Shown in pieces: positions 16,589 to 54,308 of a DNA stretch of 64,000 nucleotides. Source of the DNA: Hahellaceae bacterium (GTDB taxonomy: Bacteria; Pseudomonadota; Gammaproteobacteria; Pseudomonadales; Oleiphilaceae); the NCBI GenBank assembly GCA_024234575.1, contig JACKOB010000004.1, positions 186,001 through 250,000 of the forward strand, given 5' to 3'. The stretch's first letter is position 1, and each line of letters opens with the position of its first letter. Position numbers and translations under genes: made by a program. Under the pieces are notes generated by a model, which worked only from the letters and a program-made list of their open reading frames with translations, was not told where the DNA came from and did no database searches.

Positions 16589-17788
16589 TTACTCGATGAT
16601 GACTCGGTAATTTTTTCTGTACCAACGGTAGTCATCGTTGACGCGAAGGTTGATTATGATGGTTGCTTCTTCACCAGCAACCCCAATTGGGGAGTAGCTA
16701 AAATTTTTACTTTCTTCACTAAAGCCATCTATGCGCACGATTCGATCGTTTTCACTTTCAACTTCCATGCCTGTAATTGAAAAGTCCCGCTGTTCTGAAT
16801 AGATGTTTATTGTTCTTGTTTTATGATCACCTTCTTTAACGGTTTCGCCAAAATGATCGAAAAATAGGCGCTCACCGAGCTCTTTGTATATTAATGTAGA
16901 TTCGTAACCAATTAACTGTTCGGTTTCATCACTACCTTTAAGGGTGGTCGATCTTCGACCTTCAATAATTTTCTTGCGCTTGTCCAGCAAGTCCTCTTTA
17001 TAAAAGTCGATCAATTCTTCGTCATAGCCCTCAATCAGGCCTCCATCCTCATTATACATGGTTGGAGCGCAATCGATTTCTTGCTGAGTTGGAGGAGTTG
17101 CACATCTAAAGCTTGTCTCTGCAAAAAAACAGATGTTTTCGAGTAGGATATTTACTGGCGATTTTCCTTCAGTTACCTGTTCCTCAACTATGGTTGGGTC
17201 AACTCCGCCTGCAGGGCATTCACCCTCTATAAATTTCGGGGGCTTAACAGTTTTTTCAAACTCTTCTATTGAGACGTTGAAGTCAAGAGGTGGTGTAAGC
17301 GTGAGCAGTTCAGTGTTCAATTGCTCTATTGATCGCTCAGAAATAAAAATTCTTCGTCCTTCAATATTGTTTTCAGATAAAAAGCCATCCATCACTTGTA
17401 AAAAACGGGTCAGATTGTTTTGAAACTGATAGCCAGCAACTTCTTCCTCTGCCAGGGTATGCGTCGAGAGTCCATTAACGACATCCCCTGCCTCAAGTCT
17501 TGCGCGTCCATCGACTGAGAATTCTAACGGAGTCATATATTCTTTCGCCGGCACACTCTCGGTAAGCATTAAGTCACCAAGCCAAAAAGAAACAGTCTCG
17601 CCTTCATGGTATGAAAAAGTGCCATCTTCGCTGACTGCGCCAGATAGCGTGGCTGTTTGGTAAGTTAGTCCCTCAATGCCAGAAAAAAACAACTGGCCCG
17701 TGCGTAGGGTTGGATCACCTTTGTTGCCATCGTCACTGCAGCCTGCAAGTAATAACGTTAATATTAGGGCGGAGAGAGTATATTTCAT
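16589..17788 (-). CDS. Putative lipoprotein, unknown function
   Basis: A 399-residue protein with a clear lipoprotein signal (MKYTLSALILTLLLAGC, lipobox LAGC). After the anchor there is a stretch resembling repeated beta-strand units (GQLFFSGIEGLTYQTATLSG, then GTFSYHEGETVSFWLGD) often seen in surface lipoproteins of marine gammaproteobacteria. The rest is acidic with several Cys. No catalytic motif is visible. It is convergent with the DTW gene. Outer-membrane or periplasmic location is inferred. Confidence 0.65.
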   Translation of the reverse strand: MKYTLSALILTLLLAGCSDDGNKGDPTLRTGQLFFSGIEGLTYQTATLSGAVSEDGTFSYHEGETVSFWLGDLMLTESVPAKEYMTPLEFSVDGRARLEAGDVVNGLSTHTLAEEEVAGYQFQNNLTRFLQVMDGFLSENNIEGRRIFISERSIEQLNTELLTLTPPLDFNVSIEEFEKTVKPPKFIEGECPAGGVDPTIVEEQVTEGKSPVNILLENICFFAETSFRCATPPTQQEIDCAPTMYNEDGGLIEGYDEELIDFYKEDLLDKRKKIIEGRRSTTLKGSDETEQLIGYESTLIYKELGERLFFDHFGETVKEGDHKTRTINIYSEQRDFSITGMEVESENDRIVRIDGFSEESKNFSYSPIGVAGEEATIIINLRVNDDYRWYRKNYRVIIE

Positions 17789-51635: not shown

Positions 51636-52553
51636 ATGATTTCTAAAGAGACAAATTTTGATTTTATGGGTAAGAGAAAGATCGCTGCCGTTTTTTCGCT
51701 GTTGCTGGTCGTTATCTCCCTCGGCTCCCTTGCCGTAAAAGGACTAGTGTTGGGGTTGGATTTTACGGGTGGCACCTTGGTAGAAGTTGAGTACGCTCAG
51801 GCGCCAAAAATTGATGATGTAAGGCAACGGCTGTTCGACGCAGGCTACGATAAACTAACTGTGCAGAACTTTGGGGCCGAAACCAGTGTGTTAGTGCGTT
51901 TGTCTCAAGGTTTTAGCGACAAAGTTGGCGAAGAGGTTCTGACCGCGTTGCAAGCTGGCGGTGCAAACGTTTCACTTAAGCGGGCTGAGTATGTTGGTGC
52001 GCAGGTTGGTGAAGAATTGCGTGAGCAAGGTGGGCTGGGATTGTTGTTTGCCCTCGGTGTGGTTATGTTGTATGTGGCTATGCGATTCCAGTTAAAGTTT
52101 TCGGTGGGAGCTGTTATTGCACTGGCCCATGATGTGATTATAACGCTGGGTGTGTTCTCGTTATTCTCTCTGGATTTTGACTTAACCGTGCTCGCAGCTC
52201 TGTTGGCGGTTATCGGTTACTCGCTAAACGATACCATTATCGTTTTTGACCGGGTGCGAGAAAATTTCAGAAAAATGCGTAAAGGTAGTTCTGAAGAAAT
52301 TATCAATGAGTCGCTAAATCAGACGTTATCTCGGACATTGATGACTTCTGCAACAACGATGTTGGTATTGGTCGCCTTGTTCATATTTGGCGGTGATATG
52401 ATCCACGGGTTCGCAGTAGCATTACTACTTGGTATATTTGTTGGTACTTATTCGTCAATCTATGTTGCCAGTAACGGCTTGTTGTCTATGGGAATTGTTA
52501 AGGAGGATTTAATGGTTCCTGTTAAAGAAGATGAAGTAAACGATTTGCCATAA
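51636..52553 (+). CDS. secF: Protein translocase subunit SecF
   Basis: The partner of SecD, 305 residues. It has the first helix and LVLGLDFTGGTLVEVEYAQA, the periplasmic P4 domain and five C-terminal helices with GYSLNDTIIVFDRVRENFRK and the TLSRTLMTSATT motif. It starts 11 bases after secD with an AGGAG site. Its stop codon lies inside the long palindrome shared with suhB. Confidence 0.96.
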   Translation: MISKETNFDFMGKRKIAAVFSLLLVVISLGSLAVKGLVLGLDFTGGTLVEVEYAQAPKIDDVRQRLFDAGYDKLTVQNFGAETSVLVRLSQGFSDKVGEEVLTALQAGGANVSLKRAEYVGAQVGEELREQGGLGLLFALGVVMLYVAMRFQLKFSVGAVIALAHDVIITLGVFSLFSLDFDLTVLAALLAVIGYSLNDTIIVFDRVRENFRKMRKGSSEEIINESLNQTLSRTLMTSATTMLVLVALFIFGGDMIHGFAVALLLGIFVGTYSSIYVASNGLLSMGIVKEDLMVPVKEDEVNDLP

Positions 52554-52609
52554 CTGACAGTCGTAAAAAAAGCGCCAATTGGCGCTTTTTTTACGACTAT
52601 CAGTTATGG
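52548..52609. terminator. Bidirectional terminator: 62-base palindrome across both stop codons
   Basis: Two 31-base arms meet with no spacer between 52578 and 52579 and differ at one position pair (52558/52599). The core AAAAAAAGCGCCAATTGGCG... with T-runs on both strands is a classic two-way intrinsic terminator. The arms extend over the last proline codon and TAA of secF and, on the other strand, of suhB. Confidence 0.93.
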
Positions 52610-53404
52610 TTGTAGTCTTGTACGGTAGGTATATAGTTTTTGCAAAATGGTTTTGAAAAGCTTGGGGTTGGCGCAAACAATAGATTTGCTGTCGTTACCT
52701 GCAGTGTTGCCAGAAAAATCACCGTAAAGTGCGCCAGATTCTTGTGCCATCAGTATGCCTGGCGCAAGGCTGTTCATGTCTGTGTCAAACAGTACTGCCC
52801 CGTCTAGCTTTCCGGCGCTTACATAGGCTAGATCCATAAGCGAGCAGCCGCTGGTATATATTGGCAGTTTTGTTGAGGATAGGTCTGTATAAAGGTCCAG
52901 GTAAACGTGACCATTTGATTTCTTTCTGCCGGTTTCGAGTACGTTCGAGCCAATTAATGCCGCATCAATGCTGTTGACGGAGCTTGCGCGAATTCGGCGT
53001 CCGTTTAAGGTTGCGCCTCGCCCTCGGCTGGCGGTGTACTCTTCTCCAGTTGATGGATTAAAAATCACGGCGTGCTCTGGCTTTCCTCTGTGAAAACAGG
53101 TGAGGGATACTGCATTTCCGGGAAGGCCGCGCACTAAATTAATTGGTTGGTGTATCGGAATGAGTTGCCAGGCAACTTCTTTGTCGGACAGGTGGGTTTC
53201 ACCCAGCGCTGCAACATAGTGATCATTGTAGGCGCGCTTAAGATTTTGCAGGATAATTTTGTGCATGTTCTGTTCAATGACTGATATCCTGTTTCGCAGA
53301 TTGTCAGCGTCTTCGAACTGGAAGTCCTGACGTTCGATGCTCTGCTGAAGAAACTCGAGCGCCTGTCTTAAAGTGCGTGTTGCAATGTTCATTACCGGTG
53401 ACAT
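52604..53404 (-). CDS. suhB: SuhB-like inositol monophosphatase homologue, catalytically degenerate
   Basis: By position (secF-suhB-trmJ) and fold this is SuhB, 266 residues. Family segments remain: MNIATRTLRQA, GEEYTASRGRGATLNGRRIR (120-139) and SLMDLAYVSAGKLDGA (188-203). The active site is gone: DPLDGTTN is IPIHQPIN (82-89), the metal Asp of the WDxAAG motif is S212 (NSLAPG), the EExG motif is ALGE, and the first metal Asp region (usually TxVD) reads NRIS. It should not be a phosphatase. E. coli SuhB also acts in rRNA antitermination without needing catalysis, so that role is possible. The ATG at 53404 (AGGA site) matches the SuhB N-terminus; an in-frame start lies at 53476. Confidence 0.88.
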   Translation of the reverse strand: MSPVMNIATRTLRQALEFLQQSIERQDFQFEDADNLRNRISVIEQNMHKIILQNLKRAYNDHYVAALGETHLSDKEVAWQLIPIHQPINLVRGLPGNAVSLTCFHRGKPEHAVIFNPSTGEEYTASRGRGATLNGRRIRASSVNSIDAALIGSNVLETGRKKSNGHVYLDLYTDLSSTKLPIYTSGCSLMDLAYVSAGKLDGAVLFDTDMNSLAPGILMAQESGALYGDFSGNTAGNDSKSIVCANPKLFKTILQKLYTYRTRLQP

Positions 53405-53549
53405 GTCTGAAATCCTGTTGTTCATTCCAAAATTTGGCGGCATATCATAGCAAATAAAGTGAATTTTTGAGAGCAATATCTCATTTAAATTCTGTTACCA
53501 TAGCGCGTCAGATTGCTGGTCTAAAAGTAAGCTCATAGAGGAAGGTGGA

Positions 53550-54308
53550 ATGCTGGGTAAGATTAGGATCGTGTTAATGGAGACATCGCATCCTGGAAAT
53601 ATTGGTGCGGTAGCCCGGGCAATGAAAAATATGGATATATCTTCTTTATATCTGGTCTCTCCTAGAGCGATGCCTGATGATAGCTCTTTTGGCAGAGCGG
53701 CTGGTGCATCTGATATTCTTGACTCTCTGGTACTGGTTGATTCTCTGCAGAAAGCTGTGGAGGGGTGCGGGTTGGTTGTTGGGGCCAGTGCCAGAAATCG
53801 ACGAATACCCTGGCCGGTTATGAATCCAAGAGATTGTGCCAAAGAAGTGCTGGCAAAGGCGGCGGTAACGGATGTAGCGCTGGTTTTTGGGCGCGAGGAT
53901 AGAGGACTGAGTAATGATGAGTTGCAGCAATGTAATTTCCATGTTCATATCCCTGCTAATCCTGACTTTTCGTCCCTTAATTTGGCTATGGCGGTGCAAG
54001 TCATTTGTTACGAGGTCCGTATGGCTTTCTTGTCAATGCTGGATGGTGTCGATAATGGTTCCTCCATCGCCAGCATTCGTGGGGCTAAGGACCAAGGGTG
54101 GGATGAGCTGCCCGCGACGGCCGATGAGCTGGAGGGATTTTTCGATCATTTGGAGAGAACGGTAAAGTCAACGGGTTTTCTTGATCCTGAAAACCCGCGT
54201 CAGCTTATGTCACGACTTCGCCGTTTGTTTTTGAGAGCGGACATAGACAAAGTTGAGCTGAATATTTTGCGAGGCATACTCACTTCTGTTGATAAGTTGT
54301 TTAAGTGA
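53550..54308 (+). CDS. trmJ: tRNA (cytidine/uridine-2'-O)-methyltransferase TrmJ
   Basis: A SPOUT-class enzyme that methylates the ribose of position 32 in tRNAs. The 252-residue product has IRIVLMETSHPGNIGAVARA, the ARNRRIPWP segment, the knot motif LVFGREDRGLSNDELQQC and IPANPDFSSLNLAMAVQ. A C-terminal dimerisation helix follows. It is divergent from suhB, as in Pseudomonas. Confidence 0.95.
   Translation: MLGKIRIVLMETSHPGNIGAVARAMKNMDISSLYLVSPRAMPDDSSFGRAAGASDILDSLVLVDSLQKAVEGCGLVVGASARNRRIPWPVMNPRDCAKEVLAKAAVTDVALVFGREDRGLSNDELQQCNFHVHIPANPDFSSLNLAMAVQVICYEVRMAFLSMLDGVDNGSSIASIRGAKDQGWDELPATADELEGFFDHLERTVKSTGFLDPENPRQLMSRLRRLFLRADIDKVELNILRGILTSVDKLFK

Follow-up and report, generated by a model that had tools for sequence, protein, structure and literature searches.

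The 64,000-nucleotide stretch of a Hahellaceae bacterium genome considered here (assembly GCA_024234575.1, contig JACKOB010000004.1, positions 186,001 to 250,000 of the forward strand; "the window" below means this whole stretch) carries a suhB-like gene whose predicted product has the fold of an inositol monophosphatase (IMPase) and none of its catalytic metal ligands. Given the alignments and models described below, the best reading is that this gene is a suhB orthologue encoding a pseudoenzyme. Relatives point to a conversion of SuhB to a pseudoenzyme that is real, wide and recurrent, with a Nus-type role most likely retained; it is very probable that SuhB without phosphatase activity has been kept as a Nus antitermination factor.

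An IMPase fold without metal ligands

Aligned to the SuhB proteins of Escherichia coli and Pseudomonas aeruginosa, the window protein reads gap, I, H and S at ligand columns 67, 84, 87 and 212, leaving 0/4 carboxylates; this bears out a preliminary description of the DNA, made from the sequence alone, which had proposed an eroded metal-binding site. E67 and E68 both lie in a two-residue gap at HYVAALGETH. The same description gave NRIS for the TxVD segment, which is corrected by the alignment to SVIE (T to S, D to E). D34, P87 and N211 occupy positions that we take to be the equivalents of the catalytic residues K36, T95 and W219 in human IMPase numbering.

The protein is like E. coli SuhB (2qfl, 6ib7, 6ib8 and 6tqn) in length, fold, K251/L254 numbering and the NGxRxR motif; E67, D84, D87, D212 and R184 of the E. 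coli protein are all absent from it. E. coli SuhB has IMPase activity (PMC6614801, in the passages drawn on here). The nearest solved relative, by sequence (E 3.7e-42, with E. coli-type SuhB next) and by fold, is P. aeruginosa SuhB (8wip, 8wdq and 9j90), which, unlike the window protein, has a complete DPLDGTTN and WDMAAG site and, according to the entry title, was solved with inositol-1-phosphate. Pfam PF00459 (Inositol_P) matches the window protein at E 6.9e-26 (91.8 bits, cut-off 27), and the top NCBIfam model, PRK10757, scores 122.5 bits, well below its 332-bit cut-off. An AlphaFold2 model built on a 47-row alignment reaches a mean predicted local distance difference test (pLDDT) of 93.5 and a predicted template modelling score of 0.90; its first Foldseek match is 8wip (template modelling score 0.88), and further matches include the SuhB-NusA AR2 complex 6ib8 and the ribosomal RNA (rRNA) antitermination complex 6tqn, of which two SuhB chains match the model.

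The structural segments and the locus are kept, as had been described, with secF-suhB-trmJ intact; a place beside trmJ, shared with related catalytic SuhBs, marks the gene as the suhB orthologue. The suhB reading frame begins at ATG 53404, where SuhB homology also starts; a mechanical list of open reading frames (ORFs) puts the start upstream, at TTG 53476.

Distribution among relatives and repeated origin

A protein search with the window SuhB gave 330 matches, 120 of them listed. Among the matches listed, the top 7 are without ligands and catalytic SuhBs come thereafter; the closest relative has 65% protein identity to the window SuhB, two Motiliproteus-type eroded forms (P0057, P0085) are interspersed among catalytic SuhBs, and P0068 is without E67 alone, apparently via a short gap. 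A genome scan used a pattern built from eroded sequences and so yielded a set biased to them; it confirmed 103 loci, and in the best 80 of these (from 76 Marinobacter records, one Oleiphilaceae metagenome-assembled genome (MAG), one MAG titled Halomonas and two Hahella) three of the four ligand carboxylates are lost in 80/80, with the gap at 67 scored as lost, and the order TrmJ-SuhB-SecF holds in 80/80.

A wider census covered 390 genomes, drawn evenly across the order to which a Marinobacter genome belongs and queried with the window SuhB and with P0056, a catalytic Pseudomonas-type SuhB. SuhB was read in 174 of them, comprising nearly all weak P0056 matches and some strong ones, so that the 120/174 SuhBs that have lost at least one ligand are not an unbiased share; all four carboxylates are kept in 54. 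At least 120 of the 390 sampled genomes thus carry an eroded SuhB. Counted from the tables, 28 weak genomes had no full readable SuhB ORF and 188 genomes were unread. Eroded SuhB appears in none of the genomes read with a P0056 E-value below 1e-80; by eye, the unread genomes are mostly below 1e-80, with six near 1e-66 that resemble the intact type of L307-L309. At E 0.001 the catalytic query found no match in G181, G182, G288, G333, G344 and G411, where SuhB may be lost or extreme or the genome incomplete.

Among the 120 eroded proteins one ligand is lost in 11, two in 53, three in 54 and four in 2, and all stay eroded with the hard-to-align column 67 ignored. Their ORFs are 248 to 284 amino acids (aa) long in every case but one, at a contig edge, and TrmJ is present in the locus in 119/120 (38/54 for catalytic SuhBs). 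Replacements of the ligands are uniform within some clades (code RDQE in 18 genomes, REHD in 17, RCDS and RCDA in 13), and eroded forms include, by name, Oleiphilus messinensis (P0003), Pokkaliibacter (P0158) and Pseudohongiella (P0178). The preliminary description had placed the change in "this lineage"; the change is real, and its confinement gives way to a far wider distribution, across 120 of the 174 read genomes of the order, with several origins.

TrmJ, a marker outside suhB, was used for a tree of 101 thinned rows, which demands six state changes, at least three of them forced by starred (well-supported) branches, and one shared loss across the eroded clades is not favoured. Since this is a quick tree of one gene, it is taken to mean several origins, with no exact number. 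The partly eroded ENDE and ESDE forms look like intermediates. Two Pseudomonas-like sequences (P0231, from a Pseudomonas MAG, and P0184) have DPLNG for DPLDG, with N at the D87 position and no change at the remaining three ligands, which may be a recent loss near Pseudomonas.

Selection on the eroded gene

Selection was assessed in relatives, with the window SuhB outside the set. For 35 pairs among 79 Marinobacter-type loci in which all three genes have a synonymous divergence (dS) of 0.1-1, the median ratio of nonsynonymous to synonymous divergence (dN/dS) is 0.031 for eroded suhB, 0.035 for trmJ and 0.033 for secF; a ratio as low as that of the neighbours makes a relic very unlikely. For 170 pairs in a wider set of SuhB alone, dN/dS ranges from 0.004 to 0.31, with 0.089 as the median.

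Residue loss in eroded SuhB falls selectively on catalytic columns. Conservation reaches 90% or more at 68 columns of 33 thinned catalytic SuhBs, and these columns were followed in 67 thinned eroded ones: 10 catalytic columns, picked from what we take to be IMPase chemistry, hold the intact residue in a mean of 0.17 of eroded proteins, the other 58 in 0.70 (Mann-Whitney p 1.4e-6, a description and not a blind test, the 10 columns having been chosen with the column ranking already on view). Several noncatalytic columns, V40, A192 and G229 among them, are likewise poorly retained, and the best kept in the eroded set are W83, R141 and R143 (100%) and P3, G134, E226 and G228 (99%), in P0056 numbering. 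In familiar bacteria SuhB is both a sugar-phosphate enzyme and a helper of rRNA synthesis; loss of the metal-binding site in many marine relatives, with residues and partners tied to the second role kept, suggests that selection maintains the RNA role.

SuhB-type residues and IMPase paralogues

In E. coli SuhB, the substitutions KL251/254AA shift the dissociation constant for NusA AR2 from 94 nM to 141 uM (PMC6614801, same passages). Position 251 is K in 98 and R in 18 eroded SuhBs (116/120), and K or R in 54/54 intact ones; eroded proteins have the R137 equivalent in 120/120, the R139 equivalent in 120/120 and P3 in 119/120. As a control, 34 IMPase-family paralogue loci were picked from related genomes (the L100 fragment, L196-L198 and L267 excluded). 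Metal ligands read EDDD in 33/34 of these, K251 occurs in 3/34, the R137 equivalent in 2/34, the R139 equivalent in 5/34 and P3 in 5/34. In related genomes, CysQ and the catalytic IMPase paralogues thus share the PF00459 fold with the window protein and keep the ligands, mostly without the SuhB-type K251, R137, R139 and P3; they are its mirror image, and eroded SuhB accordingly retains the traits that distinguish SuhB from mere phosphatases.

That a second, intact IMPase might exist elsewhere had also been foreseen, and in relatives it does: in 10/10 eroded genomes searched, SuhB is accompanied by other proteins of the IMPase family whose DPxDGT motif is intact (21/21 loci). On NCBIfam, four such paralogues comprise two CysQ above cut-off and two that pass no cut-off. 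In a family sample of 61 genomes, 58 give PF00459 matches that score 192 bits or more, against at most 108 bits for the eroded SuhBs read there; four of these matches (L207-L210) were read as paralogues not near trmJ, and three more were read (L083, L084, L088). No match of at least 192 bits was found in G043, G051 and G057 of the same sample, and an IMPase paralogue is therefore usual, not universal, in eroded relatives. The cysQ of genome G005 (L100) is split in two pieces, as if frameshifted.

Nus partners and boxA

Both C-terminal repeats of NusA score above cut-off in 68/71 eroded and 34/47 catalytic genomes; in G295 and G174, which have catalytic SuhB, no NusA C-terminal repeat was found, perhaps through incomplete genomes. 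The eroded SuhB loci L184, L192 and L265 belong to genomes G319, G221 and G388, and two of the three are without K251. Co-loss of K251 and NusA AR2 was considered and is not relied on: G319 and G388 fit it (no K251, weak second repeat), but G221 has a single repeat with R at 251, G286 has lost K251 with a normal NusA, and the catalytic neighbours G107, G143, G242, G262 and G435 are also weak in the second repeat.

For boxA the published consensus GYTCTTTAANA was used, replacing another consensus of a first test. A 16S search gave a match in 12 of 21 genomes and none in 9, providing 30 rRNA leaders, 27 from 11 eroded genomes (including G045 and G062) and three from one catalytic genome. A boxA lies upstream of 16S in 30/30 loci, with no mismatch in 22 and one in 8, and is never within one mismatch on the opposite strand.

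In E. coli and Salmonella the Nus complex regulates suhB through the boxA of that gene, a site conserved in Enterobacteriaceae (PMC5725501, in the part drawn on). Within 200 nucleotides upstream, a boxA with at most one mismatch is present in 69/120 eroded suhB genes (44 exact), which, the site being clade-bound, are not 69 events; the control on the trmJ strand gives 1/120 and dinucleotide shuffles 2.2%. Catalytic suhB leaders have such a site in 9/54 (2 exact), and in a thinned set the counts are 37/67 eroded and 9/33 catalytic.

Weighing the explanations

The kept AR2 lysine, NusA repeats and rRNA boxA, together with leader boxA in some eroded clades, fit a purely Nus-type role. The preliminary description had held SuhB to be purely non-enzymatic here; that evidence supports the idea, and it is from sequence that we infer the rest, namely the loss of phosphatase activity, binding to NusA or RNA polymerase, complex membership and the dimer state of eroded SuhB. 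In the mechanism envisioned, the kept IMPase fold would no longer bind the catalytic metals, so inositol phosphates should not be hydrolysed; the C-terminal helix (K251, L254) would hold the AR2 domain of NusA; SuhB would aid NusB/NusE loading at boxA of the rRNA leader, counter Rho and assist rRNA folding; and a separate intact IMPase paralogue could cover metabolic phosphatase needs in relatives.

Several observations weigh against this reading. R184, at the dimer interface, is present in 0/120 eroded versus 45/54 intact SuhBs, and some E. coli R184 mutants reportedly lose RNA polymerase binding and complementation; with R184 lost in 120/120, either the protein must contact polymerase differently or its dimer must be constitutive. 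L184, L193 and L265 have lost K251 (L268 is cut off at that position), and of the NusA repeats the second scores weakly in G319 and G388 and is absent from G221. NusA and rRNA boxA would be kept for other reasons too, which makes their presence permissive, not specific. Leader boxA is bound to clades (REHD 17/17, RDQE 17/18, RCDS/RCDA 12/13, -FLD Marinobacter-type 0/13, ESDE 0/5), it occurs within one mismatch in just 9/88 loci of the window family, and the window leader has no clear boxA, the best site carrying two mismatches.

R184 is common rather than defining in SuhB, being absent from 9/54 intact proteins. L228, L289 and L293 are catalytic SuhBs without it, and L228 and L289 adjoin the eroded Pseudohongiella-type clade in the TrmJ tree; as a suggestion only, R184 loss may precede ligand loss in the clade near them. 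It is also absent from L287, L256 and L296, whose clade is uneroded. Residue 184 affects the dimer of E. coli SuhB, and R184A is suggested to stabilise it (PMC6614801, same passages); constitutive dimers would be allowed by the two SuhB chains in 6tqn.

The uniform replacements of the RDQE, REHD and RCDS/RCDA clades, and the high confidence of the predicted window fold, are what might be expected if the pocket had been remodelled to serve a different reaction or ligand, making SuhB a new kind of enzyme or sensor. This is unlikely: replacements vary by clade, with hydrophobics and gaps among them, the catalytic columns are among the least retained of the conserved set, and the window protein has no ligand carboxylate left. 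Loss of R184 throughout the eroded set, and the scarcity of a clear leader boxA in the window family, would also suit a noncatalytic role outside the Nus complex, such as a part in assembling ribosomes or regulation that involves no contact with NusA; with K251 and the NusA repeats kept and a Nus-type leader boxA in several eroded suhB clades, such a role is distinctly unlikely. That the window holds a decaying relic or an assembly error, as the shortfall against the SuhB equivalog model could imply, is extremely improbable, since the change is common to 80/80 relatives, their dN/dS is low like that of the neighbours, ORFs are near full length and the window model is confident. Sequencing error, which the preliminary description would have recognised by an intact motif in close relatives, is rejected along with a pseudogene on the same ligand depletion, low dN/dS and ORF lengths.

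Retention of SuhB as a noncatalytic Nus factor is thus preferred to all three. A broader account is probable as well: across much of the order (Marinobacter, Oleiphilus, Hahella, Motiliproteus, Pokkaliibacter, Pseudohongiella and relatives), catalysis would have been lost repeatedly and independently, with R184 lost alongside, maybe first. SuhB would thereby have become a constitutive Nus subunit, and metabolism would be left to a paralogue.

Features of the window

Table 1. Location of suhB, its altered and retained segments, and neighbouring features in the window
Feature	Position	Strand	Basis
suhB-like coding sequence, IMPase fold without catalytic metal ligands, 266 aa	52604..53404	-	PF00459, alignment, AlphaFold2, Foldseek
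Codons 82-89, IPIHQPIN replacing DPLDGTTN (D84 to I82, D87 to H85, T to P87)	53138..53161	-	alignment
Codons 66-69, ALGE, adjoining gap at position of E. coli metal ligand E67	53198..53209	-	alignment
Codon S212 replacing metal ligand D212	52769..52771	-	alignment
Codon T184 replacing R184	52853..52855	-	alignment
Codons 246-254, NPKLFKTIL with K251 and L254, numbered as in E. coli SuhB NusA-AR2 interface	52643..52669	-	alignment; interface from passages of PMC6614801
Codons 134-139, NGRRIR, with R137 and R139 positions	52988..53005	-	alignment
Best boxA-like site of suhB leader, GCTCTCAAAAA, 2 mismatches to GYTCTTTAANA	53464..53474	-
secF, convergent neighbour, marker of suhB locus	51636..52553	+
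trmJ, divergent neighbour, marker of suhB locus	53550..54308	+

Between the convergent secF and suhB, an inverted repeat that contains runs of A and of T (52553-52610) resembles, by eye, a two-way terminator. A marginal Rfam match to SNORD36 at 17332-17401 (31.3 bits, E 0.52) is most likely chance in a bacterium.

Implications for SuhB biology

In the open-licence PubMed Central literature, nothing was found on SuhB or on inositol monophosphatase as a pseudoenzyme, nothing on SuhB in Oceanospirillales and nothing relevant on SuhB in Marinobacter; a passage search of PMC4807359 gave nothing on phosphatase activity in the passages returned. The role of SuhB phosphatase chemistry in rRNA transcription has so far, in the work seen, been asked with E. 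coli mutants. The relatives described here would be natural repeats of that experiment, with catalysis erased and the gene under strong selection together with NusA-contact residues, and eroded SuhBs may thus offer ready separation-of-function proteins in which P3, R137, R139 and K251 are marked as candidate Nus or RNA contacts. Annotations of "inositol monophosphatase" in these genera call for caution, as they may not mean a phosphatase. If this reading is true, phosphatase activity would be dispensable for the conserved function of SuhB.
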